A stretch of 64,000 bases of DNA. Source: Zygnema cylindricum (lineage: Eukaryota > Streptophyta > Zygnematophyceae > Zygnematales > Zygnemataceae). Shown piece by piece: positions 1 through 62,550 of the stretch. The position numbers and the translations under genes are program-made. The notes beneath the pieces were generated by a model that was given only the letters and a program-made list of their open reading frames with translations, was not told the origin of the DNA and ran no database searches. Numbering within the stretch: position 1 is the first letter of the stretch; each line of letters opens with the position of its first letter. The stretch spans positions 1-64,000 of the forward strand of contig JBBHKE010002816.1 in assembly GCA_037447655.1 (NCBI GenBank), read 5' to 3'.

Positions 1-988
1 AACTTCTCTCTCCAACTCTCAAACTTGTCGCAGTAACTGAGAAATTGGAGAGGAAGCTAGAGCTATGGCTACCTAGGCTATCTAGAGGTTTACGGGATAT
101 AAATATTAGTTTATTTATAATTTAGAATATATTTACTAAAATATATGTGCCGCCTCCAGGAATTGATCCTAGAACCTGCCGGCCAGTAATCAGCCGGTAG
201 CCGGTAGTTCTAACCGTTAACTCTAGAGATAATGATACATTCTATGCAGATTGATAATTAATTAAACATTGACACGTAGAATAGTTCATTTAACTGAAAT
301 AGTTTTACGGGAGACATAGATCCAGTAATGTAAAAGTACGGATTACGGTACGTATACGAAAGTAATACCGCGCATTTATTTCTTTACCGAAACGAATATC
401 GCACATGTATTTATTACGGCTACGATTAAATGTAAATTTAATCGGACGGCCGAAATTAAACGCCAAGATCGCAAAAGAGAATTTCAGCGGTTTTTTATCA
501 TCGCCACATCGGATGACACCTGGCGGAATGACATTGGATCGCGGCATCTCCGAGGATTAAGGGAGCGAATCCAGAGATACCGCGTGTCGACATTTAGGCC
601 ATGTCGTACAGTATCCGTACATAAAGAACACACACAGCTGTACTTTTGTGTACGGTGGAGTAATCTGATTGGCTCCGTACATCAGTAGATAGAGTCTGTG
701 AGAGAGATAGGACTTAGAAAAATTAGGAGATAGGACCCTCTCTCCCAGAGAGCTTTTATACAAAAGGTCAACTTTGACCCTCCATAACTTACTGCTCAGG
801 GGAGCAAATTCAGAGATTCTTTTTGCTATCGACTCACGGGAGTCTTGCCTTCACAAGGTTTAAGTTCGTCAGGTTTTTTTCTGCCAGGGTGGCAGTTGTT
901 CTTGCTGAAACACAAAGGGGTCAAGGTTAACCTAGAGGCTTTTTGGAAGCTGTCCACTCTGAGGACTTATGGAGGTCTCAGAGTTTCA
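1..988 (+). mobile_element. Copia LTR (copy D), 5' end outside window
   Basis: This is a near-complete LTR in plus orientation. It is an inverted copy of the solo LTR at 1974-3022; by comparison with that copy, about 70 bp of its start lie left of the window. Its 3' end (…GAGTTTCA, 988) abuts coding sequence of the minus-strand copia integrase of element A, so it inserted into that gene. The expected target duplication would begin at 989 (cccat), but its partner is outside the window. A TATA-like stretch (ttttatac) lies near 755. An antisense tRNA-like arm is at 156-172. Whether it is a solo LTR or the end of a longer element cannot be seen. Confidence 0.8.
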
Positions 989-1968
989 CCCATCTCTCAT
1001 AAGGTGTCACTCCTTTTATAGCTGAGGTAATGACTTTATTCTTAATGTAGTTGGCACAGTTCATTGCTTCTGCCGAAAATCTCTTTCCTATTTTTTTGTC
1101 TGCCAACATACTACATGCACTATCTCCTAGTGTTCGATTCAACTTCTCAGCTACCCCATTTTGTTCTGGGTTATATGGTACAGTTTTCTACTGTTTCACT
1201 CCTGCATCTCTCAGATATTCCTCAAACTAGTTAGAGGTATATTCCCCCCCATTATCACTCTTTATCCTCTTATTAGGGGTTTCATGCAACTTCTCACTCC
1301 ATGCTTTATATTCTTTGAAGTAAGTTGATGCTTCAGACTTTGTTTTTAGAAAGTAGACTCTAGAGTATCTAGACCAGTCATCGGTTATTGTCATCATAAA
1401 CCTCTTTCTTCCAACCGAAGGTACTTTTGCTGGTCCCCAAATATCTTTGTGGACCAACTCTAACACTTTCTCACCTCTATATGTGGCAGCTTTGGGAAAG
1501 GGAAGACTGTGAGCCATACCTTGAGCACAACCACTAGAATCATCCACCATTTCATTATCGCCAAACTGAATGCCTTCTACTACCCCAATTATTTTCATTT
1601 CCCTCAACCTATCAAAATGCACATGCCCCAACTGCTTATGCTATATCATCAACTTAGGAACACCAAAATAATAAGTATTATTATTTTCATTACTCAAGTT
1701 AAGCCTAAACATTCCTTGGCTACACTTATCTACCTTGAAGTAAACTTCATCCCTATATTTTGCTGTAAAGACTCATTTTCTACCGAAGGTATCAAACTCT
1801 TTGTCATCTAGCACAGACGTAGAGATAAGATTTTGACTCAGCTGAGGAATGTAGAGTACATCTGAGAATGTAAGTATAGAAGTCTTACCCTCCACTAAGA
1901 CTTTCAGCTTTACTAATCCCACTTGATCTGTACTAACCACTCTCCCCTCCCCATACTCTATTTCTATA
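989..1968 (-). pseudogene. Copia element A: integrase and protease C-terminal part (broken)
   Basis: Read on the minus strand, this continues the pol frame of copia element A after the LTR C insertion. The protease end shows the usual V-L-Y-I-P-x-L-x-x-N-L-I block. A GAG-pre-integrase-like stretch follows, then the integrase core with catalytic D (…HKDIWGP), D (…SDNGGEY) and E (…NGVAEKLNRT). At least two in-frame stops break the core: one after GGEYTSN near 1226, and a second a few codons later. The frame ends at 989, where LTR D was inserted. Reverse transcriptase and RNase H would lie beyond the left edge. It is a dead Ty1/copia pol remnant. Confidence 0.85.
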
Positions 1969-1973
1969 GTAGG

Positions 1974-3022
1974 TGAAACTCTGAGACCTCCATAAGTCCT
2001 CAGAGTGGACAGCTTCCAAGAAGCCTCTAGGATAATCCTGACCCCTTTGTGTTTAAGCAAAAATAACTGCCACCCTGGCAGACAAAAACTCTGACCAACT
2101 TCACCCCTGTGAAGACAAGACTCCCCTGAGTCGATAGCAAAAAGAATCTCTGAATTTGCTCCCCTGAGCAGTAAGTTATGGAGGGTCAAAGTTGACCTTT
2201 TGTACAGAAGCTCTCTGGGAGAGAGGGTCCTATCTTCTAATTTTTCTAAGTCCTATCTCTCTCACAGACTCTATCTACTGATGTACGGAACCAATCAGAA
2301 TTGAGTTCCGTACGCAAAAGTACAGCTGCCGGTGTACTTTATGTACGGACATTGTACGGCATGGCCAAAATGTCGACACATGTCAAATCCGGATTCGGTG
2401 CCATAATCTCCGGAGTTTCCACAATCCAACGGAATTTTGCCACGCGTCATCCGATGTGGCGATGGCCATAAACCGCCGAAATCTTTCTCCGCGATCTCGG
2501 CGCTAATCCCGGCCGTCCGATTAAATTCGGCTTTAATCGTAGCCGTAATAAATACATGCGCGGTATTTGTTTCATTTACGAAACAAATGCGCGGTACTGA
2601 TTTATGTCCGTACCGTAAGTCGTACATTACATATTACTGGATCTATGTATCCCGTAATTAATTCTAGTTAAATGGTTTATCGCTTGTATACATATATAAA
2701 TAATTATCAAACTATATGCTAGGTAACACTACCGCTAGATGAAACGGCAAGGGCTACCGGCTATACTGTGTCTGCCGGCCGGCAGGTACAAGGATCAAAT
2801 CCTGCCGCCGGCACATACATTTTAATTAAATATATAAACCCTAATATAAAATTCCCGTAAACCTCAGGATAGCCAAGGTAGCCATGGCTCTAGCTTCCTC
2901 TCCAATTTCTCAGTGACTGCGACAAGTTTGAGAGTTGGAGAGAGAAGTTAGAGATAGACTGCCTCGACTTCTATATTTCTTTTCAGACCTAGAAAATACT
3001 AATAAAACCATTAGTTTCTACA
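1974..3022 (-). mobile_element. Solo copia LTR (copy C), 1049 bp, with 5-bp target duplication
   Basis: This is a single LTR in minus orientation, beginning TGTAGAAACT at 3022 and ending …GAGTTTCA at 1974. It is flanked by the direct repeat gtagg at 1969-1973 and 3023-3027. It splits the protease codons of copia A: the minus-strand frame resumes cleanly if the LTR and one repeat are ignored. No internal sequence remains, so it is a solo LTR left by recombination. An antisense tRNA-like hairpin is near 2789-2804. Confidence 0.88.
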
Positions 3023-4210
3023 GTAGGGATCTTTCTTAGCTTAGTGATGAGTTCTTTATCACGACACATATGCATGGATGGACCTGAGTCGATAACCCAT
3101 CCTTCATGTGGAGCTTCCCGAATTGCTCCAAGGGCACACTTTTGTCTCCAAGGGATCTCCTTCTCCTCCAGGATCTTGTCAAGAAGAAGCTCCCCATCCT
3201 CCTCAGAGGACTCATCCTCGGTTTCTCCTGTAACTTTTGTAACCACAGGTGCCCTTTTCTTCCCTGTGGAAAAACCCCCTCCACGATTCTCTTGGAGCCT
3301 CAACTTTGACAGCTTGACACAATCTGCGATGAAGTTTCTCGGCTTTTTGCAAAAATGACAAAGACCCTTTGGGGGCCTCGGCCCCCCCAAAATGATCTCT
3401 TTCCCCTTTGAAAGGTTTCTTCGGGTCATTCCCCCATCGATCCCCTCCTGCTGCTAGAGCTTGAATGCTCTTCCCTCCTCTCCTAATCTCCATTGTGTTT
3501 TCCTGCACAAGTATCATCCTGACCACTGTGTTCCATTTCCATGAACTATCAGGCATTTCCTGTACTCGATACACTATGTTCTCAAACTCATCTGGTAACT
3601 TCATGATAAGAGTGTTAACTTTCATTTTCATTGTACCTGTCCACCCGGCACTTTCCATCTCCATATACAAACAAGAAAGATCATTACTGTAATCTAACAT
3701 CTTTCCTCCTTTGTAAGTGTAACTCACTAGCTTTTGCTTAGCCAACTGGAGCTCCTAAATAGTTCCAGCTCTATAAATTTCCACCAAACTCACCCACAAC
3801 TCCTCGGCCTTGTAAATGTGAAGATGAGGAGTGGCTAAAGCTTGAGTGAGGTGCATTAGAATGAAGTTCTTGGCAGCCATGTTTACATCCTCCCACATTT
3901 GAGTATCGTTCTCTGCGGTCTTCACGGTCGCCGCTCCTAGTATTGTGGCAATAAGAGTCAGGGGTGTCTCATTCCCTTTTCCCTTCTCGAACACACTGCT
4001 GTCCCCATCATCTGCCTCCTCCGCTGAGGCAGCCGTTGTTCCAGGAAACCTTACTCCTCCAAATCCTGGTGGAGTTCACGAAAGTGGACGTTTCACTTGT
4101 CCACTGACGATACCCCAATATCGTTTTTCGCACAAAGCTCCCATCATCATAGCTTCCCAATAGATGAACCTAGATCCATTGAAGGTGGGCACCCTAGAGG
4201 GTGGGCCCAT
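3023..4210 (-). pseudogene. Copia element A: gag and start of protease (broken)
   Basis: The minus-strand frame starts at ATG 4210, inside the primer binding site (MGPPSRVP…). It runs through a UBN2-type copia gag, an in-frame stop near 3758, a zinc-knuckle remnant and the protease active-site tract (VIDSGPSMHM). There is at least one further stop near the N terminus and a frameshift around 3210-3430. In the knuckle, C-x2-C-x4-N-x4-C, the expected His is Asn, so RNA binding is probably lost. Gag would form the particle and the aspartic protease would process it. LTR C interrupts the protease at 3023. Confidence 0.85.
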
Positions 4211-4214: not shown

Positions 4215-5253
4215 TGCAATTCTGTGTCCTCCATTGGACCACAGAATACATGAAGCCTCTAGATAGTATTTAACTAACCCACTTCAAGCCACAACTACTG
4301 CTGTCTTGGAAGGCAAAATGACAGTTTGACTGCACCCCTATTTAGCCTGGATTCCATTGAGTCCGTAGCAAAAAGAATCACTAAAAAAGGCCAACCAGCC
4401 GATAAGTTATGAGGCAGTAAAAATGCCAATTTGTACAAACTTTTAAAGGGAGAGGTGACTACCTACCAAAATTTTCTAAGTCTTGATTCCCTCTAATAAC
4501 TTCTATCTACTGAAGTACGGACCAATCAAATTACTGTACTGTACCAAAAAGTACTACTGCCGGTGTACCTTTTGTACGGCCTATGTACGACAAGGTTATT
4601 AAGCGGACGCGTGTCTGCTTTTCACTCGTCCGTACATTCCTTGGAATTCCTATGACCGAATGTCATCTCTCCACGTGGCTCCAGGTCATGCCACGTCACA
4701 AAACGCCAAAGTGACCACTCCGGGATTCCAGCAATGATGTGCGCCGTTGGATTCGCAGCGAGACGCAATCTTAGCCGTTATAAATACTTGCGGGATATTT
4801 GTTTCCCTGTCAAAAAAAAATGCGTGGTATTCGTTTTGAAAAAGTGTCGTACTTCGTACTTTCATAAAACTGTATCTATGTAAGCCGTATACTGATATAG
4901 TTAAATGAATGTGTTCCTCCTTATAGATATATATATCTACCACATACTATAGCATTTAGCATTGGTCTTAGTCTAACAGAATAAAGCTAACCTGTATCGG
5001 CCAACTTGACGAACCGAAGGTACCGGGATCAAATCCCGGGTCCGTCAGGTACATTTTTAGTAACCTACTAAAAATAATCGCCTATTTGAACTAAGGATGC
5101 CATGGATCAACCTCCCTCTCTATCGTTCAGTGACTACATCAAGTATGGGGGCTAGAGAGAGGAGGTGGAGGCAAGCTGTCCGTCCTTTTTCCTTTTCTTT
5201 TATACTAACCTATTAAACCTAGAAAATACTCTAGAAATGTATTATTTTCAACA
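4215..5253 (-). mobile_element. 5' LTR of copia element A (1039 bp)
   Basis: The LTR begins TGTTGAAAAT at 5253 and ends …GAATTGCA at 4215 on the minus strand. It shares blocks (cctagaaaatact, gtacggaccaatca) with the other copia LTRs here. It is followed by the tRNA-like primer site and gag, so it is the upstream LTR. To its right is gypsy integrase coding sequence, so element A inserted into the gypsy element; ctcca at 5254-5258 is the likely target duplication, with its partner outside the window. An antisense tRNA T-arm-like hairpin is at 5023-5039. Confidence 0.85.
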
Positions 5254-5258
5254 CTCCA

Positions 5259-5835
5259 GCTGGCAAAGGATCGTCAAAAGTCGCAGGCCGACGCTCACCG
5301 GAAGGAAACCGTTTTCAGCGTGGGTGATATTGTTCGCCTTAATATGGCAAACCTCTCCTTACCGGGTTCCCTCTCTAAGAAATTGGCACCGAAATTCACG
5401 CGCCCATTCACAGTAATGTCACGTGTGGGTGAGGTGGCTTATAAGTTGGATATTTCGAAAGAGTGGCATATCCACAATGTCTTCCATGTTTCACTTCTTA
5501 AACCATTTCGCGACCCTGATTCGATGTTTCCTAATCGACGACGGAATACTCCTTTACCACCCGTTCGGGGTACCTCGGACGAGTATGAGGTGGAAGAGAT
5601 CCTTCAGTCGCGCCGCTCTCGGTATTCCAACTCCAGCCAGTATCTGGTGCGTTGGAAGGGCTATAGAGCTGAAGACAACTCTTGGGTGGAAGAGGAGGAT
5701 CTGCATTCCCCTGAGTTATTGCACCGGTTTCAGACGAGTGAGGACACTCGGCGTCACCGGAGGGGCAATCGCATCGGCCGCGGTAAAGGAGCGAATCGGA
5801 GTGTCCCAACCATCGCAATTATATTGGGGACGTAG
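5259..5835 (+). pseudogene. Ty3/gypsy integrase C-terminus with chromodomain (truncated)
   Basis: The frame shows the integrase C-terminal GPY/F-like region (VGDIVRLNMANL…, KLAPKFTRPFTV, AYKLDI…HNVFHVSLLKPF). A chromodomain follows (EVEEILQSRR…QYLVRWKGY…NSWVEEEDL), and then a basic tail and a stop. This is the 3' end of a chromovirus pol. The chromodomain would direct integration to particular chromatin. The 5' part is cut off by copia A at 5258. The frame is open, so this portion may be fairly young. Confidence 0.9.
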
Positions 5836-13500: not shown

Positions 13501-15146
13501 GGAAGCAGTATAAACAGCTTCACAATCAACAACTCAAAGAACAACTTAAACAACAACTCAAACAACTCCACAACAACACTGCAAACAACTTTACGAACAA
13601 ATTATCAAACAAACCTCAACAGATGCTGTAATGGCATCCCGGATAGTTCTAATATCCAACTTGAATGAAGGTCCAGGTTGTTCCCATGGAAGGTCACTTT
13701 CCTGTTCACCCATACATCACATGTCAGCCACCATATCGCAGAAGATAATTTGAAAGTAGCCACTTAAACTAAGGAAAATGGACTCAGAAATACTACACTG
13801 CTACACAAATTCGGTTGCGGCTTTTTTTGACCAAAAATCACAAGATAGTGTAAATAATACTTTTTATGGGAGTTGACTGCAATCGGCCACGTCTCCCTAC
13901 ACTAAATTAATACTATAATTCTAATGTTACATTGACACTAATAACTCTTTTACGTTAAGCGATGGGCAGTAAGCTGTAAATGAAGAAAAAACAAAAATAA
14001 CAGTGATAATAGTAGTAGTAGAAAGTAGTAAGTGCTTTCCATTAAACCAACAACAAAAACAACAAAAAATAAAAAGGCATGGAAGTTATTAATTTGACAG
14101 CCACCTTAAGTCAATTTGACAACAACTTAAAACTCAACCTGAAACAATATACAGGAAGCCCCTCAGAAACATTGGCTGCAAATGAAAGATCATCTTATAA
14201 GAAAAACAACGAAAAGCGAAGCAGAAATGTACAATTATGCCTTGACAATAACTTCATCAACATTTTATTATGCCTTGACAATGACTTCACCAACATTTTG
14301 TGACAAATACAAAAAACAAAATACAATGGCGGCAGTCCACAGAGGAGAAAACAAGTCTTACCTTCCAGCCTCCAGTGCCTTCTGCCCCTCCTTTTATGGC
14401 ATATACTTTTTTAAATCCTGCCTTGCTAAGCACTTTGGCAGCATTCGGTGCAATTCCTCCCAGCCTTCAGAACCACAAAAATCCGCAAAACCATTTGTAA
14501 ATATTAAACATACATCGGTGCAAAAATTAAACATAAACCAGTGCAACTCCACACAACCTTCCAAAACACAAAAATCAACAGAATCTTTTGTACAAATAAC
14601 ACACAAACCGGTGTAAGAACTAAAACGTAAACAACATCCACAAAATTGTTTGCAAAAATGAAACATAAATGGGTGCAATTTCACGCAACCTTCAAGATCA
14701 CAAAAATTCACAGAATCGTTTGTAGAAATCAAACTTAAAAATCATTTCTTCAAACCAAACATAAATCATTTGCTAACATTTGAGCTGGTTTCAGGTCAAA
14801 TTCAATATGATTTACACCAATAATGAGACTTCCCTCTTGAAAACTAAAGATAACATTAATGCATTGTCTAAAAGGTAAAAGATAAAGAAGAGTGAAGGGG
14901 AGAGGGAGAGGCGGAGAGAGGTATCGTGTGTGAGAGCGAGAGACTGGAGAGATGGAGAGAAACGGTGGGAGATAGAAAGTAGAGAGAGAGGGGAAATAAA
15001 GGAAGACAAACAGCAGGGGGAAAGAGAGAGAAAGGAGAGAAGTGAGAAGGTAGGAGTGGGAGAATAAGAGTGAGAGAGAGACGGAGGGTGAAGAGAGATA
15101 AAGAGAGGGAGGGAGGGAGGGAGAGAGAGAGAGGGAGGGAGAGAGA

Positions 15147-15183
<37 letters not shown>

Positions 15184-15290
15184 AGGGAGGGAGGGAGGGA
15201 GGGAGGGAGGGAGGGAGGGAGGGAGGGAGGGAGAGGGAGGGAGAGGGAGAGAGAGGGAGAGAGAGGGAGAGAGAGGGAGAGAGAGAGAGA

Positions 15291-15346
<56 letters not shown>

Positions 15347-16018
15347 AAGGAAGAGAAAGAGAAAATACTTGTCAATGACAACAATGGTAGCATCCGTGCT
15401 GACGCCTTTACTGGAAGACACCAAAGTTGAAAATTCAGGATCAGCAAAGAAAGATCCATCTTCCTCCTCCTTCTCAAACTCCACCAGTAACGCCTTTTTC
15501 TTTACAGACTTGAGAGAGGGAGAACCCACCTCCTTCCTATCCTCCTTACTCCTAATGTCCAATAAAATCACATTCTCCTCTCCTAGAAGCTTCAATGCCT
15601 CCTCTGCCTTCAAATCTCCAGAATATCCCTTTCTCCCAAAGATAAAAAAAAGGGTACCAGGGATAAGTAGAGCTCCAACACCTCCAAAAAGAAGGAGAGG
15701 ATCGATAGAATCCACACTAATTTCGGCTTCTAGGGCTTTGGCGGGTAATGGCGTCACTAAGAAACCGGCAAAGGCAGCCATGGCTGACGAAAATGGAGGA
15801 GGTTGGCAAGCGATGGCTGGAGGAGGAGAATCTGGAGATTCTTTCCAATGCTGTGCTGACACATGGCATGATTTTAAAGATTTAGGTTGGATGGTTTTCT
15901 GGCGGACAACGGAACCAGGAGACTGGCATGTACGGTCACTGTTAGACTGTACGGACTGTACAGACTGTACAGAATGACCAATGCAAGCGGTTAGGGAACA
16001 TGAGTTGACAGCCGCCAT
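10528..16018 (-). CDS. TROL: Thylakoid rhodanese-like protein (TROL-like), 8 exons
   Basis: Exons (minus strand): 16018-15369, 14464-14362, 13701-13615, 13409-13335, 12764-12690, 11946-11866, 11350-11153, 10575-10528. All introns are GT-AG and the lengths join in frame to 438 codons. The product should be a chloroplast thylakoid membrane protein that anchors ferredoxin-NADP reductase. Seen: a Ser/Gln-rich transit-like N-terminus; membrane segments at about 107-128 and 285-303; between them a rhodanese-like domain (LLDIRSKEDRKEVGSPSLK) without the catalytic Cys loop; and a C-terminal FNR-binding-type motif (RPLSPYTM then YPDLKPP). The Pro/Glu-repeat swivel of seed-plant TROL is not evident. 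The start at 16018 has a good context (gccATGG); an upstream in-frame ATG at 16069 is less likely. No breaks are seen. Confidence 0.93.
12270..12381. repeat. CT-rich low-complexity tract in TROL intron 5
   Basis: The plus strand is a pyrimidine tract with (CCCTTT)n- and (CCCCTT)n-type units between exons 5 and 6 of the TROL-like gene. The frame that crosses it is an artefact of the repeat. Confidence 0.85.
15108..15357. repeat. (GA)n/(GGGA)n microsatellite in TROL intron 1
   Basis: About 250 bp of pure and mixed GA and GGGA repeats on the plus strand lie within intron 1 of the TROL-like gene, just downstream (in gene sense) of the exon 1 donor at 15368. GA-rich sequence extends more loosely back to about 14890. 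The long S/L/P-rich frames on the minus strand are artefacts. Confidence 0.95.
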
Positions 16019-16191
16019 GGCTTTCTTCCTCTCGCCCTTCTTCCTTGTCTCGGAATACTTACTAAACACTGAAACACCTTAAGACCTTTCTTTATTGGAG
16101 GTTAGACTCCACCCTTTACTACTGTAACGTCGTCTGGGGTTTCTTCTATTTTAAGGTTAACTTTTTACAAAGTTTCATTTTAAGGCCTTAC

Positions 16192-17872: not shown

Positions 17873-18240
17873 TGTTAGGACGTACAATTTTTTAATCTAA
17901 GTTTATGTTATGTTAGTTCGTAGTCAGTGTGAATTAATTCTGGTCGCGCGACAGTTCACGTATTTCGGTTTTGTTTCGTATAGTTTGTTTTAGTATTTCG
18001 TGCGTATACTTTTCACACGTACACGATTAGATTAGATTTGATTTGTTTTTGTTTCGTTTAAGTTATAGTACTATACGTCGAGAAGTTTCGTTTGGCGAAA
18101 GTTAATTTTGTCGAATAGGACTGAGGAGTATAGCTGAGGAGATCTGCCAATTCCCAATTTGCAAGCGGTAGGAAGAGGAATATCAAGCAAGTTTGTAACA
18201 CACTTCCACACTTCGGCGGTAAGTGGATAAGGCACATTCC
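17873..18240 (+). other. Possible LTR or leader of the methyltransferase retroelement
   Basis: AT-rich sequence starting TGTTAGGACGTACA precedes the methyltransferase frame. It has the look of an LTR or 5' leader (T-rich, with TATA-like tatagtactata near 18065). No matching copy lies downstream of the RNase H, and no standard primer site was found, so this is only a suggestion. Confidence 0.25.
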
Positions 18241-18318
18241 GACCTAATACCTGGATTTAAAAAACGTCTTCAATCAGAGTCTTCGAAGATCATACCTAGT
18301 GAAAATTTTAACAGATAG

Positions 18319-19320
18319 GTGGTGTCATTAACAATTTCGAACTCGAAACTCCGGTTTTTATCTTTGTTTTTGAGAATCAGTTATGAGTTAGAAGCGATTT
18401 TGAAAGAGGGATGTGAAGTAGAAACCTATTCAGTTGTGGAGATCTCACCAGAAGACCGCGCAGTCAACGAACACTGCCTCTACCTGCTCCACCAACTCTA
18501 CCCTCACCAGCTTCTAGTGTCCGCATTCTCAGAGGCCCACCATAGTCTTCCCCAAAACGTCGAAAACATCATGACACCTCATCTGGCGAGTTTCAGAAGA
18601 GTAGATCTGGTGGTGGCAGGATGGCCTTGTCAGGGATACTCCCTAGCAGGAAAAGGAAAAGGGCATCAGGACCGAAGGAGTAAAACATTTTTTATAATGG
18701 TGTAGTTAATATCATGGATACAACAACTCCAAAACACACCAGTGGGGTACGTTTTGGAAAATGTTCCCCTATGAGATGATCGACAAAGACATGTGGCCGA
18801 CAGCTAGAATCACGTTACCCAGATTGTAGTGGCTATATTCGTCTTTGACGCAACACAAATGGGATCTCGGGCACACAGGGTTAGAGCTTATTGGACAATT
18901 TTGATCTCGCTTCCCATACTCAAGAAAATCTTGGAGAAGCAAATGCCACACCCTCACAATTATGTGCAGCAAATCCTTGGGAAAGGGCGTATGGCAACAC
19001 CAATGATAAAAACCAACCGTCTTCCGTTCTTCCGGTGCAACAAGCCAAGAAGTCCACGACGTGCACTTCCTACGTTCGTTTCCTTCCGTCACAGCCACGC
19101 ATATTGGCAAGGAGCAGCGGGGATGATTTATGATAGTGCAACAAAAATCTGGACGACCTCGACAATTGGAGAACGAGAGCAAGCAATGGGATTCCATAAA
19201 GAAACCACGGTCGCACCAAGTATTTTAGACCTCCAGAGGTGCAGCCTAATAGGGTAGGGTATGGATTTAAATGCAATCACATGGGTTCTCAAACATGCCC
19301 TCGCCTCTTCCAGCCTCAAG
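18319..19320 (+). pseudogene. C5-cytosine DNA methyltransferase domain of a retroelement (stops)
   Basis: One reading frame holds the ordered motifs of a C5-DNA methyltransferase, an enzyme that moves a methyl group from S-adenosylmethionine to cytosine. Motif I is degenerate (LSLFLRIS…LEAILKEG…VVEI). Motif IV, with the catalytic Cys, is intact (VAGWPCQGYS). Motif VI (YVLENVP), motif VIII (GSRAHRVRAYWT), a motif IX-like region (EREQAMGF) and motif X (MDLNAITWVL) follow. Four in-frame stops (18703, 18769, 18802 and 19255) break it, with no frameshift. The F-x-G-x-G of motif I is lost (FLRIS). The same frame runs on into a gypsy reverse transcriptase. No gag or protease is seen upstream. It is not a standalone host DNMT, because no CMT/DRM/MET accessory domains are present. 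Confidence 0.85.
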
Positions 19321-19499
19321 TCCCTAGAGTCTAGGTCTATTTACCTTCAAGCTCCTCAGTTGTTAGCCATGCAGGCAACTTTGCTGCTTAAAGGGGTGGG
19401 AGCAAGGAGAAGGAGAAAAAACACATTTCACAACCGCGTGTTTTTCCAAAGGGGGGGGGGCGGTGGTTCAGATGGCGACAGCTTAGCGTAAGTTGTCAG

Positions 19500-21115
19500 C
19501 TGTAGTGTCTTAGCCGAAGAGGTAGAGGCGGATCCACAAGTAGGGTTGGAATTTGACATTAACCTTTGGGGAAGACCACTGAAAACTTGGGCGGATGTTG
19601 AACCACGGAAAATGGATTGGACCCTAGGGCAGCAGATGGACCCTCAGTAGAAGCCGCGGCTCTCCAAACTATTGGCCAAAAATAAATAGGTGTTCTCCTG
19701 GTCAGAAATAGATGTCAGCATCTGCAAAGGAACCCCATTTCGAACGCATTCGATCAATGAGACGGCTACAGTTTGGCAGAAGCAGTATCCTCTCAGTTTC
19801 AAGCATAAGGAATTCATCACAACTAAAGTCAAAACTTTGGTCTTAGCCGGATTGGTTCAAAAAAGTACATGACTCTATGGGTTTGCTTCCCCGATAGTCC
19901 TCCATCCCAAGAAGTACTCGTCTGGGAAAACTTTGGATTTCCGGATGTGTGGAGATTATCGCAAGTTACACACGGCCACCATTTCTTACCGGTATCCGAT
20001 GTCGACCCCGAAAGAGATATTCGACTATCTTGGTGGTGCCACTATCTACTCAACTCTGGACATGAAGAACAGATTTCACCAGATTGTTATAACCAAAGCA
20101 CCGAGAGAGAACAATATTTTGGGCAGACTCTAGACTGTATAAGTGTATTTACATGCCCTTTGAACTGAAAAATGCACCGACCAAATTCCAACGGGCAATG
20201 GACGAAGCTCTCCGGGGAATCAATTGTGCCCACTGCTATATTGATGATGTCATTATCTTCTCCAAAACCTTTGAGGAGCACTTGGAGCATGTATAGATCT
20301 TCCTCCTGACCCTTTAAGCAGTGGACTTGAAATGTTACCTGGGCAAGGGTTTTTTTGGAGTACATAAGATTATTTTTCTTGAACATGAAGTTACTCTTGG
20401 GATAGTGGGCCCCCATATGGTCAAGGTAACAGCCTTTGACGCTTTTCCTCCACCGCAGGACATCTCGTCCCTTCGCACATTCCTGGGTTTGGCCAACTAC
20501 TATCGGCGGTTTGGTCAAGGTAACAGTCTTTGACGCTCTTCCTCCACCGCAAGACATCTCGTCCCTTCGCACATTCCTGGGTTTGGCCAACTACTATCGG
20601 CGGTTTATCCCCGAGTTCAATAGTCACGCCCAGCCTTTCAATCAACTATTGAGAAAATATCAAGAATGGCAGTGGGTCGAAAAGCAACAGATCGCCTTCC
20701 ACTTCTTGAAAGATGCACTGAAGCACCACCCACTGCTGTGGATGCTTGATCACTTGTGGCGTTTCCTCCTTTACACTGGTTGGAGCAGGATTAGATTGGG
20801 AGCAGTTTTGGCTCAAGTAGATGACATCGGAGCTGAATATGTGGTGGCTTACGCCAGCCGGAGCAATAACCGAGCGGAGGGAAATTATAGCAGTTACCAC
20901 AGAGAGCTCTTCGCGGATGTTTGGGCGATCCAGCATTTCTATCCTTACTTGTACGGGGTCCATTTCACATTGATTACCGACCACCAAACCTTGAAATGGA
21001 TCATGGAAAATAGTAAGTTAACCGGCAAACTCGCCAGATGGGTTTTTATCGTGCAAGAATATGATTTCACCGTTGTTCACCGGGAAGGGATGTTCATTCC
21101 TATCTTTACGACCTA
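19500..21115 (+). pseudogene. Ty3/gypsy reverse transcriptase and RNase H (broken), joined to the methyltransferase
   Basis: Downstream of the methyltransferase the same frame gives the N-terminal RT lead-in (LLAKNK…VFSWSEIDVSICKG), then RT blocks (KVKTLVLAGLV, CGDYRKLHTAT, STLDMKNRFHQI). After a frameshift near 20130 come the PFELKNAPTKFQRAMD block and the catalytic YIDDV box. The connection (FLGLANYYRRF) is present twice because of a 94-bp tandem duplication. RNase H follows with D (LLYTGW… position degenerate), E (NYSSYHRELFA) and D (LITDHQTLKW). Stops and frameshifts make it inactive. No integrase follows; the sequence soon passes to the GA repeat and LRR exons. Confidence 0.88.
20419..20606 (+). 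repeat. 94-bp tandem duplication in the RT connection region
   Basis: Two near-identical units of 94 bp lie at 20419-20512 and 20513-20606, differing at a few bases. The length is not a multiple of three, so the duplication shifts the frame. It repeats the codons for the FLGLANYYRRF block. Confidence 0.95.
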
Positions 21116-39782: not shown

Positions 39783-40111
39783 TAGTACACTATTCATTTT
39801 GCAAATCTTAGGGAACGCGACAAATCGTAATTATTGGCTTATTCATATGTCGTACATTACTGCAAAGTGCTAATAACGCATTTTATACCGTGTTTCCACT
39901 AATATATCATATTATTATGTCAATGTCATGCGGCATGTAGTAATAATTGGTTAACAAATGAGTGAAAATCAAACTATAACGTCAATTTCTCACGACTAGT
40001 CTTAATTATTGGCGTACTCACATGTGTCAAACAATAAATCTTTAAATTGAGTTGCTATTATAGTTAGAGAAATTCGACCACAATTCAAACAAAACTTAGT
40101 CATACACTAAA

Positions 40112-42315
40112 ATGGAGAAAAACATCCTCGCTTCCCTTAAAACTACAACCCAAAACGAACTTCGAAAATTAAAAAATGGTGAAATTGCTCAGTATTACAT
40201 AGAGAAAGAAAGCAGGGCCACTTCAAATTGTTGGAAAAAATTTGAGCATGTCTATGAAGTTAGAACATCAAACAAATACATGGTAAAGGAGGCAGGTTTT
40301 GTGGCTTGTAATACATGTTTCATAGTTTATCAATACAAGTCAGCAAACGGTACTTCAACAATCAATACTCACACGTGTTTAGATTCGGCCGACATGGATG
40401 ATTCAAGAGGACTTCTTCGTAAGTTTCTTTCAAAAACGGAGGAGAAAACGAGTGATCGAAAAAAAATTGCGAAAATAGTGGCATTGATGTGTTGTGAGGA
40501 CCTTCGACCATTTTCGATAGTCAACGGTTCAGGTATGATTTATCTTAAATACTATTTAATATGGCTTGAGTGTAAATGTCATTATAACTTGTTTTGTTCA
40601 TAAATTTATAAATTTGAGCTTAGTTTGTCATGATATTGTTTTTTTTTTCTTTCCATAAAAAAATATCATTTCGTTATAAACCTTCTTTATTAATCATGGT
40701 TAGTAGTACTTGTATGATATTTATTTATTTTGTTTTTGTCCCCAAGTTTTTAAGCATTTTGTCAAGCATTATTTGATGTTGGTGTTTTGTCCAACAAAAG
40801 TGTTGACATCGACCAACTACTCCCGTCCATCAATATTGTAAAAAACTGCATTATATCTTCTGCGAAAGATATCCATAGTTCGATCATCCCAAAACTTAGA
40901 GAAAATATTGAAAACAATATTTTTGTCGCATTCACGACCGATCGCTGGACCGAGACAATAAAAAAAACCTCATAAATGTCAATAACCGCTGATTTTATTG
41001 ACAAATAATTTGAACTTCATGCACGGACGCTTCAAGTCGATCATTTTTCGGAGGAAAAACACACTGCGGAAAAGGTTTTAACGGCTTTCAAAAATTGTTT
41101 GACCAATTTTGAAATGTCTTATTTTCATCTTTGCGTTGTCGTGACTGATAGTGGCTCTAACATGTGTGCGACTGAAGGTCTACCGAGTATGTTTACTTGG
41201 ATTCCTTGCGCGGACTATAAAATTGCAACAATTGTGACAACAATCTTGAATAAGAGTGGAACTTCTTAAAAAGGCAAATACAATGTGGAAGTTCCTTATT
41301 TTTTGATCTAATTGACACATGTAAATCATTGGTCACGTTTTTCAAACAGATTAATTTACAAAATCTTTTGAAAAACACTTTAAAACAAGAAAACGCAACG
41401 TGGTGGAATTCTTTGCTCCGAATGCTTAAGAGTATTTACGATGCATTCAATGAGATAGGACCAATCTCTCAAGCAAAAAATAAATTGATAATCTTTGCTT
41501 GTATCGATAAGACTCACCTTACCGAACTTATACGATTTTTGGAAAGGTTCCAAAAAGCAACCCTAAAATTGGAAAAAATTAAAGAATCAACTTTACATTT
41601 GGTTTTGTTTGAACTATTGTATCTCCATAACCATTGTAAGATAAGAAAAACATCTTACAATGACGGTGAAAAAGAATGCCCCGCCGATTCCCTAAACTTG
41701 CAAAAATTGAAACAACTTTTTGTGAAATTTACACTATTGAAGTGGGGCCTTCATGAGTATCATATTGTCGCGGCTCTCTTAGATCCCCGACAAAAACACA
41801 AGCTTGAAATAATTGGGGTATCGAAAACCGAAATTGAAAGCGCAAGGGTCAAACTTCGAGAACTCGCAAACGACCTCGATGATGACGTTGATTTCGGAAG
41901 TCTTCAACGTATCACAAAAAAAATAAAAACATCGCAAAGTAAAGACAGTTTCCACAATTTTTTTGCTGAGAGCGATGAGGAAAATGAGGTTCTTATTACC
42001 ACTGACAAAAAGACGCTCGTTAACGGCGAAATGGAACGTTATTTTGATTTAAAATTAACCAACGACGAAAGATTGAACTTTAACATACTTGAATGGTGGA
42101 AAAAAAAATCAAATGTACGTGCAAAAGATGGAGGATTTCCTATTCTAGCCGGTGTTGCTATATCTATTCTAGCTATTCCGACTTCTAGCTCCATGTCCGA
42201 ATGCAATTTTTCGGATGCTGGGAACAGGATAACAAATAAGAGGAGCTCACTAGCTACTTCAATTGTTAGTGATCTTTTGTGTGTTAGATCCAACCGAGAT
42301 CTTTTAAATGCATAG
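40112..42315 (+). pseudogene. hAT transposase (two exons, three internal stops)
   Basis: Exon 1 (40112-40532) codes a BED-type zinc finger (C-x2-C…H-x-C: CNTCFIVYQY…THTC) and ends at a GT donor. Exon 2 (about 40747-42315) codes the catalytic region (FTTDRWT, VVTDSGSNM, LPSMFTWIPC) and the hAT dimerisation domain near the C-terminus (SMSECNFSDAGNRI). A DNA transposase of this type cuts and pastes the element. In-frame stops near 40974, 41007 and 41268 inactivate it, but the last 328 codons (41329-42315) are open. The minus-strand copy at 52941-59485 aligns through both exons. Confidence 0.88.
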
Positions 42316-43479
42316 TTTTTTATTTTGTTTTGTTTTCTAATTATTGTTATTTTTTTAGCATTAGTTATCACGTTTTTTTTTCCTTTGAAATTTTTGTTGT
42401 ATTTCACAATTTTTATAGTGTTATTTGTTATTTCTTTTTTAAACCGGAGTGCTTATTTTTATCAAAGTACCAAAGCTCCGTATGTATACCAAATTTAGAT
42501 TTATAGATTTTTGTGTAGTTTTAAGTTTGAGGTTGAGAATTTGTATAATAGAGTCGAAAATAGAATGAGGTTATTATTTATTTATTTCTATACTTGATAC
42601 TGCAAAACATTTTTTGTTTTTTTGCTCATCACAATGTTTTTGTCAATTGATTTTCTATGTGAAAACTATGATTTTTTTTTAAACATACATAATTGAAAAT
42701 TTACCTTTTTTGTATAATTCATAACATAGTATTGTAGTCCAAAGAAAAAAAGTCCGAAAATTGTAGCGAAAAAATTAGATTTGCGAGAGAATAAACATTA
42801 ATATAAGGGTTTAAGCATTAATCTAAGAGTTACACGCAAAATTAGGAACAAATCCCTCGAAGAAGGTGACTGTCGAGGAAAAAAAAATATTCGTAAAGGA
42901 AGATTGCATATAGACAAAATAGTAAAAAGAAGAGGTACACTAGCTATTTTTTTGCAAAGGGAGATGTACCACTACACCACTCATTGTTATTAGTATTAAT
43001 AAGTTGCTACTACTTATAGCCGAAAATCACAAAATATAGTTAACAACATTAGTTAAATATGTGGACTATAACCTGCCACAACTCTTTGCATTAAATAGTA
43101 TTATTAATCATAAATTTCTATTTACACTACACTGCGGATCGTAATTAGCGTTATTAACCCTAATTCCGTCACCACGAATTTTGACCCAAAAACCTTAAAA
43201 AAAGTAAATAACTAAAAAAAATTCTTTACATTATTCAAAGTACTCTTTGAATCAGCGTTAACAACTCGAGTATAGTGTCGTTTTAAATAGTGTAGCTAAC
43301 GTACAAAACTCTAACGTATAAACGAAAAAAATACAAAAAATGATTTAATACATGCCGTTATGATGTAACTGCGTTTTCACAAGCCGCGTAGTGCAAACGT
43401 CATAATGAAGTGAAACTATACGTTTTGACATAATGCGTTTTTACAAACCGCGTAGTGAAAACGTCATAATACTTTGTAC

Positions 43480-43735: not shown

Positions 43736-43955
43736 GTACATTAGTTAATTTTGTACCTTTTTTCGGTTACGGGCGGGCACGGTTAGTCGCGAGAAATCAA
43801 GTTTCGGTTAATTTTTATTTTCGTAAACGCCGGTAGATTAACGGTTAACAATTTTGGAGCGTGACATAACCCGGTCTGGCGTCAGTAACTCAAATTTTGA
43901 AAAAAAAAAAACGGTCGGTTTCGATTATGTGAAATTTTGACTTTTGCAACCTTTG

Positions 43956-46900
43956 ATTCAGGGCACCATTTTAGTATACCGATAATTTTTTGTCGTTCAA
44001 AGTTTGATAATAACGATTGGTGGAAATATCGCGATATGGAGATATCTGATAGCCAAAAAAATATCTAATATGCCGGTACTCCCCCAACTTGTTTCACCAA
44101 AGCTACACCGTGAATCGCTTATATGGTATAGAAATTATCGGTAAAAAGAGGCAGTGGATGTTATTTACTCTATAAGGGTTTAACGACCTAATGCCAAATA
44201 ATAGACGTAACATTATCAAAACCTTCAAATTTTTAAACCCATTGAAAAAAACAAATGACAACATTTTTTTCCTCTTTGCAACGTGTTGAGAAAGAGAGGA
44301 GAATGGAGACAGGGGTGGTAGGAGGATAGAGGGAGAGAGAATGACATAGAGAGAGGGATAGAGCGAAAGAGAAATACAAAGAGACATGAAATAGATACAG
44401 AGAAAGAGAAAGAGAGCGAGCGAAAGAGAGAAAAAGAGCGAAAAAAAATACAGAGGGGAGGGGGGGTGGGGAGAAAGGGGGGTAGAAGAGTTAGAAATCT
44501 TAATATTTTATAGTTGACTTCTCCCACACATGGAAAATTGAGCCCAAAAAGATACGAACCTAGGACTTTTAGTTAAAATTGTTAACACTCCGCCACCAAC
44601 CGTCATGTCCGCATAAACCGGTTATACATTGTACGGGTCATGAACTATAATTATGTTGGCTGACATTATATACCTATGTGTTGCATTGTTAATTTGTTAA
44701 CTATATCCACATTGGAAGGATTTTTGAAATATTAAGGTTCACCGAAACTTACGACCACATTTTGTGAATGTGTTAACTACTCGTGTGTCAACCAACATGA
44801 AGCACCCGTCTACCAACTTTGATATCGATACTAAAAAGTCTTTTATACTTTTGTTTTATTTTGGATGGACCGCGGTTTGTTCCTTTAGACGTATGATACT
44901 ACCTGAAACAAACAGAGAGGAAATAGAGGGGGATAGAAAGTAGGGAGGATGAAACACACACAAAATGGAGGAAAAAATTGAGGTAACTAGGGACGGAGGT
45001 AGAGAGGGAGGGAGAGGGAAATAAAAACAAAGAGAGACATAAACATGGAGGGGGAGAGATTAAGAAAAGCGGCATACATCGAGAATGGTAGACACAGGGT
45101 GGTCATCGCTTTTCCTCCTATCTTTGTCTTTGTGAAAAAAATGAAAAAAATAGAGTTATCTCATAATGGACTCTAAATTGGCGTTATTTAGTTTTTACTC
45201 ACTGCTACGTCTTGTTGTGTCATCTTCAAATGGTTACTCTAATTGACTCAAGGGTCGATTTTAGTGAAAGTAACACTTGAGAAATGAATAAAAATATATA
45301 TACGGATGGACCACACGAATGTGACTCCATTGGCACGAATGAGAATACACAATATTTTCTCCCAACTCGTCACGCGCATGTACGAAAATAAATTTTGTAG
45401 AGGTCTCGGACCTCCATTTTTTTTCCATACGTCCTTTGTAAAACTCGATTCCGTCGTCGCCTCTCCCTCTATATCATCCCGCTCTACTCTCCCGCTTATT
45501 CGAATAAAACGTGACAATATTGATATGATATGAAAAAGGCTCTTCAAAATTTTATGTTCACTAACTTGATTGTACCTTGATGGCATGTCGATTGAGAAAA
45601 TTTAATCGAAAGTTTTTTTCCGAAAAAAAACATGAGAATATCGGTACGATATGGAAAAAAGTTATAAAATTCATTTTTTAGCTAATTTTGTGTTGCTTGA
45701 TGACACGTCAATTGAGAAAATATAAAAAAAGAAAACGGGGAAGCCTTGGTGGAAAGTTTTGGTTATAATGATGTCGACGCGGTCACAAATGAGATTGACA
45801 TCACAATGTCACAAAATGGAAAACATATACAATGTCACAAAACCTCGATGTTTACGGTAGTCAATATTTTATAGACGACATCAATCGTTGTAATATTTGT
45901 AGTCCTTTACTACCGTCACAAGTTGCACCCACGCCTACAACCGTCACAATTTAAAGTAACAATTTTATATTTGCACATTGGAACGTTCTTCAAAGTACAC
46001 CGTGTATCACTATTGTTGTCAATGTTTGTTTGCCAATACACGCTTGTCAGATTATGGATGTGATGGTTGAAATTGAAAGGTAACATTATAACCTTATGAA
46101 TGGTTGTCTCCACGTGAAAATTAGACAAGTGTGTACGGAGAAAATATGTTTTAACTTGCGAAAAAAACATTGACACTAATAGCGACACGGAATGCAATAA
46201 ACAATATCTTCTCTAAAATTTAAAGTTATATTTCAAAATTGTGGTTATGTGGGCACACAACTTTAAAAGATGTACCTATGTGTTAAAGTATCAATTATTT
46301 TTTGTTGTTTGTTTGCAAAATTCAATCCACAATGAGAACATATTTTACAGTACGAAAAAATTGTAAACACCACAATATAAAGAACGTCATCTTTATACTT
46401 TTAATGAACTCCAATTTTTGCCTTATTTTGTACTCAATTTGACCTTTTTCTGTTTTCGACCCACGAGAACGTTGTTTCGGCTCATCAAAAAACTTTATAT
46501 CAAAACCATTTCGCGAGGTGATTTTGGTTAAAACACCACTTAAACAACAAAGAGTTATACGTCCGCGCACATGCCACATGAAAGTGGATTTTTTAGCACA
46601 AGGAAGAGTACTGCTATTTTTTTTCTCGCTCGACACGCAAACGTACAAAATTAAGTTTCAAGGGTTTCGTGCCTCCACTTTTATTTATGGGTCCTTTGCA
46701 AAAGTCTACGCAGTCGTCGCCTCTCCTTCTCTATCTCATATTGCCGCTCCTATCTCACACTTTTTAGAATGAAAAAATATGATATTGTTGTAAAATGAAA
46801 GAGCTCTCAAAAAGGGGAAGTAGTTTGATGAGAAGTTGAGTGAGGAAAGACGATATTTTTTTCCGAAAAATCACGTTGTGAAGTCTTAAAGAATTATGTT

Positions 46901-48951: not shown

Positions 48952-49613
48952 CTTTAAATCAGCGTTAACAACTCTACAGTACTATAGTGCCATTTTAAAT
49001 AGTGTGGCTTACGTACAGAAGTGTACCCTATTAACAGAAAAAATACAAAAAATGATTTAATACATGTCGTTATGATGTACCTGCGTTTTCACAAACCGCG
49101 TAGTGCAAACGTCATAATGACGTGAAACTGTACGTTTTGACAAAATGCATTTTTACAAACCGTGTAGTGAAAACGTTATAATACTTTGTACTCTTTGGTA
49201 TCGTGGAAGTATGTGACATCATGATTAGCGTCGCAAATCTGACACGGTACTGTAGTAAGCTATTTATTTCGCAAATGATAGGGAACGCGACAAAGCGTCG
49301 CAAATCTGACACGGTAGTACACTATTCATTTCGCAAATCTTAGTGAACGCGACAAATCGTAATTATTGGCTTTCATACGTCGTACATTGGTTAATTTTGT
49401 ACTTTTTCGGTTACGGGCGGGCACGGTTAGTCGCGATTCGAGAAATCGAGATTCACTTAATTTTTTTTTTTCGTAAACGCCGGTCGGTTAACGGTTAACA
49501 ATTTTGGAGCGTGAAATAACCCGGTCGGGCGTCGGTTTCTCAGATTTTGAAAAAAAGAAAACGGTCGGTTTCGGTTATGTAAAATTTTGACTTTTGCGAC
49601 CTCTACCGCCTAC

Positions 49614-52027: not shown

Positions 52028-52940
52028 TGACAAACGTACAATTTCACTTCATTATGACATTTCCACTACGCGGTTTGTGAAAACGGAGTTACATTATAAC
52101 GACATGTATTAAATCATTTTTTGTACTTTTGTCGTTAATACGGTACAATTTTGCACGGTGAGACACTGATCGTAAGCCACACTATTTAAAACGGAACTAT
52201 ACTAAAGTTGTTAACGTTGATTAAAAAAGTACCTTAAATAATGTAAAGAAAAATTTAGAGTTATTTACTATTTATAAGGTTTTTGGGTCAGAATTTGTGG
52301 TGACGGAATTAGCGTTAATAACGCTAATTACGATTCGCGGTGAAGTGTTAATGGAAAATTATGATTAATGATACTATTTAATGCAAAGAGACGTGTCAGG
52401 TTATAATCCACGTCTTTAAATAATATTGTTGACTTTATTTTGTGATGTTAATGTTTATTCTCTCGCAAATCTAATTTTTTCGCTGCAATTTTACGGACAG
52501 TTTTTCTTTCGACTACCATACTATGTTATGAATTATGCAAAAAAGGTAAAGTTTTAATTATAAATGTTTACAAAAAAGGTCTTAGTTTTTCACATAGAAA
52601 ATCAATTAGGAAGAAACACATTGTGATGAGCAACAAAAACAAAACGTATTTTGTAGTATCAAATATATGAAAAATAAAATAACAACCTTGTCCTATTTTT
52701 GACTCTATTATACAAATTCTCAACCTCAAACCTAAAAATTACACAAAATATATAAATCTAAATGTGGTGTAAATACTTTGCTTTGGCAATTTGGTAAAAA
52801 TAAACATTCCGGTTTAAGAAAAAAAAAAGATAAACACTATAAAAATTGTGAAAATAAAAAAATATATAAAGAAAAAAATATATATGTATAGCTAATACTA
52901 AAAAAATAGCAATAATTAGAAAACAAAACAAAACAAAAAA

Positions 52941-54085
52941 CTATGCATTTAAAAGATCTCTGTTGGATCTAACACATAAAAGATCATTAACAATTGAAGC
53001 CGCTAGTGCGCTCCTCTCCTTTGTTATCGTGTTCGCGGCATCAGAAAAATTGCATTCCGACATGGAACTAGAAGCCGGAATAGCTAGAATAGATCTAGTA
53101 ACACCGGCTAGAATAGGAAATCCTCCATCTTTTGCACGTACATATGATTTCTTTTTACACCATTGAAGTATGTTAAAGTTCAATCTTTCGTCGTTTGTTA
53201 ATTTTAAATCCAAATAACGTTTCAATTCGTCACTAACGAGCGTTCTTTTGTCGGTGGTAATAAAAACCTCATTTTCGTCATCGCTCTCACCAAAAAAATT
53301 GTGGAAACCGTCCATATTTTGCGATATTTTTTGTTTTTTTGTGATACGTTGAGGACTACCGAAATCAACGTCATCACCTAAGTCGTTAGCAAGTTCTCGA
53401 AGTTTGACCCTTGAGCTTTCAATTTCGGTTTTCAATACCCCAATTATTCAAGCTTTAGTTTTTGTCGGGGATCTAAGAGAGCCGCGATAATATGATACTC
53501 ATGAAGGCCCCACCTTGGTAACGCAAATTTCATAAAAAAATTCTTTCAATTTTTGCAAGTTTGGGGAATCGGTCGGGCATTTTTTTTCACCGTCATTGTA
53601 AGATGTTTTTCTTATCTTACAATGGTTATGCAGAGATGTTTGTTCAAACAAAACCAAATGTAAAGTTGGTTCTTTGAACTTTTCCAACTTTAGGGTCGCT
53701 TCTTGAAACCTTTCAAAAAATCGAATAAGTTCGGCAAGGTGAGGCTTATCAATACAAGCAAAAAGTATCAATTTATTTTTTGCATGAGCCACTGGTCCAA
53801 TCTCATTGAATGCATCGTAAATACTCTTAAGCATTCGGATCAAATAAATCAACCGCGTTTCGTTTTCTTGTTTTAAAGTGTTTTTCAAAAGATTTTGTAA
53901 ATTACTCTATTTAAAAAATGTGAATAATGATTTACACGCATCTATTAGATCAAAGAATTCAAGAACTTCCACATCGTATTTGTATTTTTTGGAAGTTTTG
54001 CTCATGTTCAAAATCGTTGTCATAATTGTAGCAATTTTATGGTCCACGCAAGGTATCCAAGTAAACATACTCGGTATACCTTCAG
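52941..54085 (-). pseudogene. hAT transposase, C-terminal part (copy 2)
   Basis: Minus-strand frames (53888-53499, 53435-52941 and 54116-53907) match the second half of exon 2 of the copy at 40747-42315, ending with the dimerisation region (SMSECNFSDAANTI) and DLLCVRSNRDLL. Stops and frameshifts near 53440-53500 and 53900 break it. It joins 58243-58817 if copia B is ignored. Confidence 0.85.
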
Positions 54086-54090
54086 TCGCA
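54086..54090. repeat. Target duplication of copia B, left copy
   Basis: tcgca; the same five bases flank the right end at 58238-58242. The hAT reading continues across the join. Confidence 0.93.
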
Positions 54091-55231: not shown

Positions 55232-55239
55232 CTCCCTTT

Positions 55240-55750
55240 ATTTTCAAGTCTATTTTCCTTTCAACTCCCACAAACAAATAAACAAAATCTTGCTCCCCTC
55301 CTTTTTTTGTTCTTTTTCCTTTCATAAACTTAAGAGAAATACTCTCGTATTTACAACGGTGCATAAGATGAACCGAAATAATAATTGCATCACACATTTT
55401 ATTTAGCATCCCACTTTTCATAAATCCGAGCCAAGATTTAATCCACATCTCTTTTCCATCCACACTAAATAAATTTCCCTCTTGCAATTCAAACAGCCAG
55501 CCCTATCTCCAATTTGCAACACACACCCAAATGCTAACCCTTTTACATGCACACCTTCATAAATGCCATCACTCCCTTTAGTGATGTCAAACCCATTACC
55601 CCCAAAATTTAAATATTCCTCACTCTCTCCCATCGATTTCTTTCCACTATCACTTTCTATTTTTATTCCCAAAAAATGTTTCTCCTCCCCTACACCTTCC
55701 ATTAAATATTCTTCTTCTCCCCTATCCTTTAAAACCCCCTTTAGATTTAC
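55240..55750 (-). pseudogene. Post-gag reading frames in copia B, unrecognised
   Basis: Minus-strand frames 55702-55418 and 55487-55197 follow the gag stop. They lack protease, integrase or reverse transcriptase signatures. They may be a remnant of deleted pol or a novel stretch. Confidence 0.35.
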
Positions 55751-57092: not shown

Positions 57093-57095
57093 AAC
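57081..57095 (-). promoter_or_regulatory. Copia B primer binding site, half initiator-tRNA type
   Basis: The plus strand reads TGGTGGGCCCATAAC, equal to 15 bases of the plant initiator tRNA-Met anticodon arm. It lies two bases from the end of the upstream LTR and includes the gag ATG (57090-57092) on the sense strand. Confidence 0.72.
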
Positions 57096-57096
57096 A

Positions 57097-58237: not shown

Positions 58238-58242
58238 TCGCA

Positions 58243-62399: not shown

Positions 62400-62550
62400 A
62401 TTATTACCCGGTACGTGTTACGAGTTTACGAAGAAAAAGTTAACCGAAACTCGATTTCCAACGATTACCCGTACACACCCATACCCCAATAAGTACAAAA
62501 TTAGTGGTACATCTCCCTTTATACCTTCCACGATACCAAGAGTGTAAAGT

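Follow-up and report, generated by a model that had tools for sequence, protein, structure and literature searches.

The 64,000 bp stretch of Zygnema cylindricum DNA analysed here (the window: positions 1 to 64,000 of the forward strand of contig JBBHKE010002816.1, assembly GCA_037447655.1) carries on its plus strand, at 18113..21098, the surviving part of a retrotransposon: the end of an upstream open reading frame (ORF), a cytosine methyltransferase (MTase), a reverse transcriptase (RT) and a ribonuclease H (RNase H). These limits are set by DNA similarity to other genomic copies, which begins at ~18113-18142 and ends at 21089-21098. Sequence comparison identifies this locus as a decayed and truncated member of an MTase-bearing Ty3/gypsy family in which the fusion of the two enzymes is real and a conserved design. 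A DNMT3-type cytosine MTase is followed by the Ty3/gypsy RT without frame change in a single, stop-interrupted polyprotein frame (18148..20109), to which residues 1-668 of the open frame of another copy, L035, align in one piece with 61.5% identity (tblastn). The frame of position 18319 displays in order the methyltransferase motifs AGWPCQGYSLAG, ENV, MGSRAHRVRAYWT and a motif-X-like end, and the same frame carries the RT blocks VFSWSEIDV, MCGDYRKLH and IYSTLDMKNRFHQI. Eight stop codons are found in 18319-20133. An earlier note on this DNA had placed the MTase motifs and the gypsy RT in one frame free of shifts, running from 18319 to about 20.1 kb; the common frame and its end (20109) were confirmed, while its start was moved to 18148.

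The MTase domain proper occupies 18349..19302, as defined by Pfam (DNA_methylase, E = 4.1e-10 on a read-through piece with X at stops) and by end-to-end alignment with the 318-residue MTase domain of L035. The segment between the domains (19303..19611) is a linker. The RT (19612..20512) is split over two frames in the window copy: it follows the MTase frame up to 20109 and continues in a second frame at 20093-20512 (RVT_1, E 2.7e-9 on this piece). The retroviral-type RNase H lies in a third frame, at 20487..21089 (tblastn with L035; RT_RNaseH E 1.3e-29 and RT_RNaseH_2 E 7.1e-26). A tandem duplication of 94 bases (97%; 20418..20605; repeat search, family D16) straddles the border between RT and RNase H. 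The codon that separates the upstream ORF from the MTase-pol frame in other copies corresponds to 18145..18147 and is no longer a stop here. Neither the downstream integrase nor any of three upstream-ORF queries matched the window (tblastn, E 0.01), so that only the middle of the element is left. No Rfam model reached its gathering threshold in the window.

The window's assembly (352.8 Mb, 2689 contigs) was searched at the DNA level with 18319-20133. Of 711 candidates, 40 were scored and matched, with 74-79% identity, the window itself aside. All but one of these matches start inside the MTase (query base 984 or before) and reach at least query base 1500, deep in the RT; the remaining one stops at base 1379, near the RT start. 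A second search used P0044, a relative from a metagenome: 31 of 8978 candidates were scored, giving 39 match rows, most of the long ones containing stops. Two rows span residues 31-1488 without any stop. The open frames of these two copies have 1520 and 1525 codons and both encode MTase, RT, RNase H, integrase zinc finger and integrase core (Pfam), which bears out the earlier proposal that the element made an MTase-RT polyprotein and supplies the intact copies that the earlier note had suggested looking for. In L035 the Pfam matches are RVT_1 (residues 601-763), RNase H (851-955), Integrase_H2C2 (1090-1146) and rve (1166-1259), with the integrase after RT-RNase H as in Ty3/gypsy retrotransposons. 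No long terminal repeat (LTR) boundary was found between MTase and RT; the repeats sit at the outer ends of the element (see below). The earlier note had named such a boundary, or separate genomic contexts for the two enzymes, as signs that a DNMT gene fragment had landed by accident in frame beside a gypsy RT. The decayed state of the window copy is the one observation that would suit this account, to which we give practically no credence: 39 of the 40 scored matches cross the junction, open joint frames exist, and the same join is found in proteins of other organisms. Chance juxtaposition was therefore rejected.

A PHD-like finger was noticed after the integrase core, at L035:5716-5850 and at the corresponding position of L036 (E 0.0044 and 0.00024 with Pfam PHD, both short of its cut-off). 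Such a finger at the C-terminal end of Pol might guide integration to marked chromatin.

The two open copies diverge at ~6% of bases. For this single pair, the ratio of nonsynonymous to synonymous substitutions (dN/dS, NG86) is 0.13 in the MTase, 0.09 in RT-RNase H, 0.14 in the rest of the frame, 0.32 in the short N-terminal part and 0.57 in the stretch matching the linker. The enzyme was therefore conserved much like the RT, as far as one pair tells, and both copies retain its catalytic motifs. These values bear on the possibility that the MTase is a captured host gene fragment travelling as a functionless passenger. The copies nearest the window are indeed decayed (no ORF longer than 479 codons in L001-L030), and stops occur in most long P0044 matches, as a passenger would have it. 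The dN/dS of 0.13, the intact catalytic motifs and the retention of the enzyme domain in many related polyproteins, in both of the positions described below, make this explanation highly improbable.

The MTase of the element finds its best counterpart in DNMT3A, by profile as well as by predicted fold. The family assignment is based on motifs in unrearranged order together with a predicted DNMT3-like fold. Three protein searches returned the relatives P0001-P0102, for which the organisms named are Marchantia polymorpha, Calypogeia fissa, Sphagnum troendelagicum, Klebsormidium nitens and Closterium sp. NIES-53 and NIES-54. One of these searches gave 43 proteins, including ones from Marchantia and Closterium, so that the word "rare", which the earlier note had applied to capture of DNA methyltransferases by retrotransposons, looks too strong. 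Domain order was read from matches to five domains of L035. The order MTase-RT-RNase H-integrase is found for instance in P0044, P0063 (K. nitens), P0071, P0084 and P0085 (Closterium), some with a terminal PHD-like finger. A second order, RT-RNase H-MTase-integrase, mostly with a terminal PHD-like finger, is found in P0074, P0076, P0080, P0082, P0083, P0086, P0087, P0089-P0091, P0093 and P0095-P0097. The MTase part alone is seen in 63 rows, which are uninformative on order. A scan of bacterial genome contigs confirmed none of 31 pattern hits as relatives, and viral contigs yielded two weak ones (23-25% identical). P0100, a protein of 1608 residues very distant from the gypsy enzymes, combines a cytosine MTase (PF00145) with PF05869, presumably a Dam-type adenine MTase.

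Three MTase trees were built. The first holds 46 of 73 rows, namely those with at least 240 MTase residues plus P0036, and has no outgroup. The second (45 rows) leaves out rows that are short, together with most of those whose position is not known, and includes P0100, P0102 and a DNMT3A fragment. The third (42 rows) omits those three and contains 32 rows of known position: 11 with the MTase before RT and 21 with it after RNase H or (five pieces without RT) directly before integrase. The K. nitens protein P0063 was too short for the 45- and 42-row trees and was included in the 46-row tree and in the RT trees. MTase position splits the 42-row tree at one branch (support 100/99), a result equalled in none of 500 shuffles, and it requires only one change in a 24-row RT tree, where P0101 stands apart with a branch length of 2.2-2.5. 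Smaller MTase and RT trees agree on shared rows: the host copies are joined by P0044/P0045, then by P0046, with K. nitens and P0062 outside; the window copy and C1920 swap places among the closest host copies. This agreement fits a long joint descent of enzyme and RT. The K. nitens rows fall among related rows in both sets of trees, which have no secure outgroup. In the 45-row tree P0100 and DNMT3A are placed inside the MTase-before-RT side (support 93/94), with branch lengths of 2.5 and 3.1 changes per column. One origin of all the retrotransposon enzymes is thus not demonstrated, because these two fall inside one group on very long branches.

In the copies read, one frame holds both the upstream ORF and MTase-pol, with a single codon between them. 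We examined this boundary at 41 loci (ten more had been excluded beforehand as duplicates, flanks or viral), 33 of which could be aligned. The codon is TAG in 26 of them, TAA in one, CAG in two, AAG in two, TAC in one and a non-stop in the window copy; L049, outside the aligned set, has TAG by pattern. In most copies, including the divergent C895/C1515 subfamily, TAG is followed by CAA TTC. Codon conservation was assessed in 28 decayed copies, leaving out close copies and ones that do not cover the boundary: TAG matches the reference in 75% of them and CAA and TTC in 96% each, while the 83 surrounding codons have a mean match of 34% (median 15%). CAA and TTC rank among the best five of these 83 codons and TAG in the top quarter. 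The pattern TAGCAATTCCCNATTTC, which was picked from copies already seen, has 266 exact matches in the genome compared to one for the reversed control. Read-through is therefore predicted, from the shared frame and the conserved UAG between the two ORFs. UAG would act as a programmed leaky stop, and MTase, RT and integrase would be synthesized only as a minor read-through product.

Several features of the boundary and of some copies weigh against this prediction and against a single frame for both enzymes. The codon differs from TAG in 7 of the 33 aligned copies. The boundary sequence resembles the tobamovirus read-through signal, UAG CAA UUA, with a difference at the sixth (last) base. A stable RNA fold 3′ of UAG was obtained for one of six copies folded (z -4.0; -1.7 to +0.2 for the others). 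MTase and RT lie in different frames in C895, C1515 and C1920. These had been considered as MTase-less relatives since their protein match began at the RT, a possibility rejected because all three carry the MTase. C895 has an open MTase frame (448 codons) and, overlapping it in another frame, an open RT frame. C895 (L049) and C1515 (L050) are near copies of each other and form the divergent subfamily, which would need a frame change, a second recoding event or separate translation because the two frames differ. It is possible, though in our judgement unlikely, that no read-through takes place at all: the upstream ORF would end at UAG and MTase-pol would be translated separately, by reinitiation, from an internal start or after splicing. 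The incomplete match to the tobamovirus signal, the lack of an RNA fold common to the copies and the C895 arrangement can all be accommodated in this way. The single codon between two ORFs of the same frame and the preservation of CAA, TTC and, to a lesser degree, TAG speak for the leaky stop instead.

The plan of the whole element, combined from several copies, is repeat A - gag/protease-like ORF - UAG - MTase - RT - RNase H - integrase - repeat B - A - B, as judged from sequence. Copy C1769 was read in pieces L052, L037 and L053, with contig positions 12601-15810 left uncovered. Its left end is a repeat A of 1.18 kb; on its right side MTase-pol is succeeded, in this order, by a run of purines, repeat B (~0.2 kb) and one further copy each of A and B. 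The element measures 12.4 kb from end to end, has the termini TGTC and GACA, and is flanked on both sides by AATT, a short target duplication. Repeat A is also found on both sides in C1374. Between the two A repeats 0.035 substitutions per site were counted for C1769 and 0.021 for C1374; in the latter, the second A could be part of a different insertion. In the three copies whose left side was read, no repeat B comes after A, and the B1-A2 arrangement recurs in L038 and L044. In its repeats, the layout A1 ... B1-A2-B2 follows the split direct repeats of DIRS-like elements, yet the element has an integrase; no tyrosine recombinase family is present among the Pfam matches of L035 or L036. By eye, C1374 and C544, the right sides of which look rearranged, show no target duplication, and a repeat search found no terminal repeats in the decayed copies L031-L034: they were recovered only from younger copies. 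The upstream ORF is termed gag- and protease-like because that of C1515 resembles P0046 along it and because of protease model matches below the cut-off. The C1515 ORF (847 codons) is similar to the start of P0046 (E 1.7e-16) and matches Asp_protease_2 at E 0.0081, below the cut-off, as do protease models on P0046. The upstream ORF of L043 (716 codons) has no Pfam match, and Pfam detected no gag domain in the upstream ORF.

Many hosts silence transposons by cytosine methylation. This use of methylation against transposons is turned round when an element brings, and preserves, a DNMT3-type MTase of its own. The interpretation that we favour, with slightly more confidence than doubt, is that of a decayed Ty3/gypsy copy with the MTase ahead of RT in one Pol frame, whose enzyme would methylate the new DNA of the element itself. 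With low-rate read-through of the boundary UAG, the MTase would come only within Pol and would be as scarce as RT and integrase. It could then be packed with them into the particle and act on the double-stranded complementary DNA (cDNA) before or at integration, so that the new copy would arrive already methylated. Two benefits are candidates: the copy might evade a response directed at unmethylated foreign DNA, or it might be given a chromatin state in which it stays quiet and is tolerated. Further observations, besides those on the boundary and the C895 frames, run counter to this interpretation. The MTase motif reads PCQ where DNMT3A has PCN. In three young copies C-to-T changes are higher at CG than at CHH and clearly so at CHG in two, but transversions rise too. 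In yeast, no methylation was obtained with the gypsy Dnmt3 of K. nitens, a result that its authors, de Mendoza and others (2018, PMC5890265), call inconclusive.

The anatomy and selection data are also in keeping with a restraint of the element by itself, in which the enzyme methylates the element so that host silencing keeps it quiet, selection acting via less damage to the host; an option of host benefit is raised in the discussion of PMC5890265. The two open copies have CpG observed/expected ratios of 0.63 and 0.62 and the window copy one of 0.67, relative to 0.94 in the whole window and 0.83 at 22-34 kb, as expected if copies are methylated. Lower CpG may also reflect codon use, the deamination pattern is mixed with raised transversions, and these data do not separate self-restraint from protection of the cDNA. 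We consider self-restraint possible, with a likelihood well below that of cDNA methylation. A distinctly smaller chance is attributed to an action of the MTase on RNA or on an RNA:DNA hybrid, for example the element transcript, instead of the final DNA. The proximity of MTase and RT in Pol would be in keeping with such a substrate, as would the unmethylated yeast DNA reported for the K. nitens gypsy enzyme; RNA methylation is raised in PMC5890265 for its LINE-type enzyme.

A wider proposal builds on methylation by the element of its own new DNA, and we put it forward tentatively, as somewhat less probable than that reading itself. Instead of being a rare accident that recurred, DNMT3-bearing gypsy elements would form one old superfamily with two fixed architectures, which selection maintains in bryophytes, in streptophyte algae and in eukaryotes beyond these. 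In the present element the enzyme would be rationed by the leaky UAG and made only together with the replication machinery, amounting to a self-modification system of a retrotransposon. The open copies, the selection signal, the predicted UAG dosage switch and the two enzyme positions make the role of the enzyme in retrotransposition, a question posed in PMC5890265, directly testable.

The remainder of the window contains further features. Copia-type pieces in inverted arrangement are found in 1-4000, with 419-nt arms at 461-879 and 2084-2502; the stretch 1973-3022 is 95% identical to one in L034. The end of another gypsy element, with a Tf2-1-type SH3 domain plus a chromodomain, lies at 5209-5835. 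A long minus-strand ORF at 14750-16078 contains an internal CT-rich simple repeat; its first part is host-protein-like by eye and it has no Pfam match. Related hAT-type transposon stretches of opposite orientation (39838-42404 and 52852-59759; Dimer_Tnp_hAT E 5.6e-16) are 85-88% complementary. A short interspersed repeat (~80%) is present at 43746-43957, 49392-49604 and 62175-62401, and also at L044 4-235, in the flank of another element copy.

Dnmt3 enzymes were described in the Pol ORF of a K. nitens gypsy element and in DIRS elements of Symbiodinium, with evidence of selection; the DIRS enzyme carried out de novo CG methylation in yeast, and protection from a response to unmethylated DNA as well as host benefit were considered (PMC5890265). 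A 2025 paper reports some DNMT3s in retrotransposons of streptophytes and dinoflagellates (PMC12344493), and plant DNMT3 genes are covered by Yaari 2019 (PMC6453930), whose consulted passages mention no enzyme borne by a retrotransposon. In mostly freely accessible literature, no published account was found of the bryophyte copies, of the second architecture or of the UAG boundary. The leaky-stop boundary, the spread to bryophytes (liverworts and Sphagnum) and Closterium, and the second enzyme position are thus apparently new, as far as could be found. The enzyme-before-RT order, which the earlier note had suspected to be undescribed, is already known from K. nitens: KFL_009030040 (P0063) reads MTase-RT-RNase H-integrase (see also PMC5890265).

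Among the closest known systems is this KnitGypsy-Dnmt3. It shares with the Zygnema element the gypsy domain set with a Dnmt3-type enzyme within Pol, a DIRS-style repeat arrangement according to the Fig. 4 legend of PMC5890265, the enzyme before RT (in P0063) and purifying selection (Ka/Ks <0.2 in that paper and 0.13 here). It differs in that a protease-like stretch of P0063, recognized by eye, runs into the MTase without a stop, whereas TAG separates them in most copies here. The P0063 enzyme is 33% identical to that of the window and 42% to that of the open copy. SymbioDIRS-Dnmt3 of Symbiodinium is likewise a retrotransposon with a Dnmt3-type enzyme within its Pol polyprotein. It belongs to the DIRS class per PMC5890265, unlike the present element with its rve integrase domains and a target duplication in one copy. 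The RT-RNase H-MTase-integrase polyproteins have the same enzyme family and gypsy set, with PHD in precomputed Pfam lists; their MTase lies between RNase H and integrase, and the trees of both MTase and RT set them apart as a group. The same MTase family is carried by polyproteins of Marchantia, Calypogeia, Sphagnum and Closterium (P0051, P0058, P0048, P0007, P0085). RT follows the MTase in P0058 and P0085 as it does here, whereas some bryophyte and Closterium entries, such as P0051, stop after the MTase. The bryophyte polyproteins bear on a statement in PMC6338049 that land plants such as tracheophytes lack transposons that encode a methylase.

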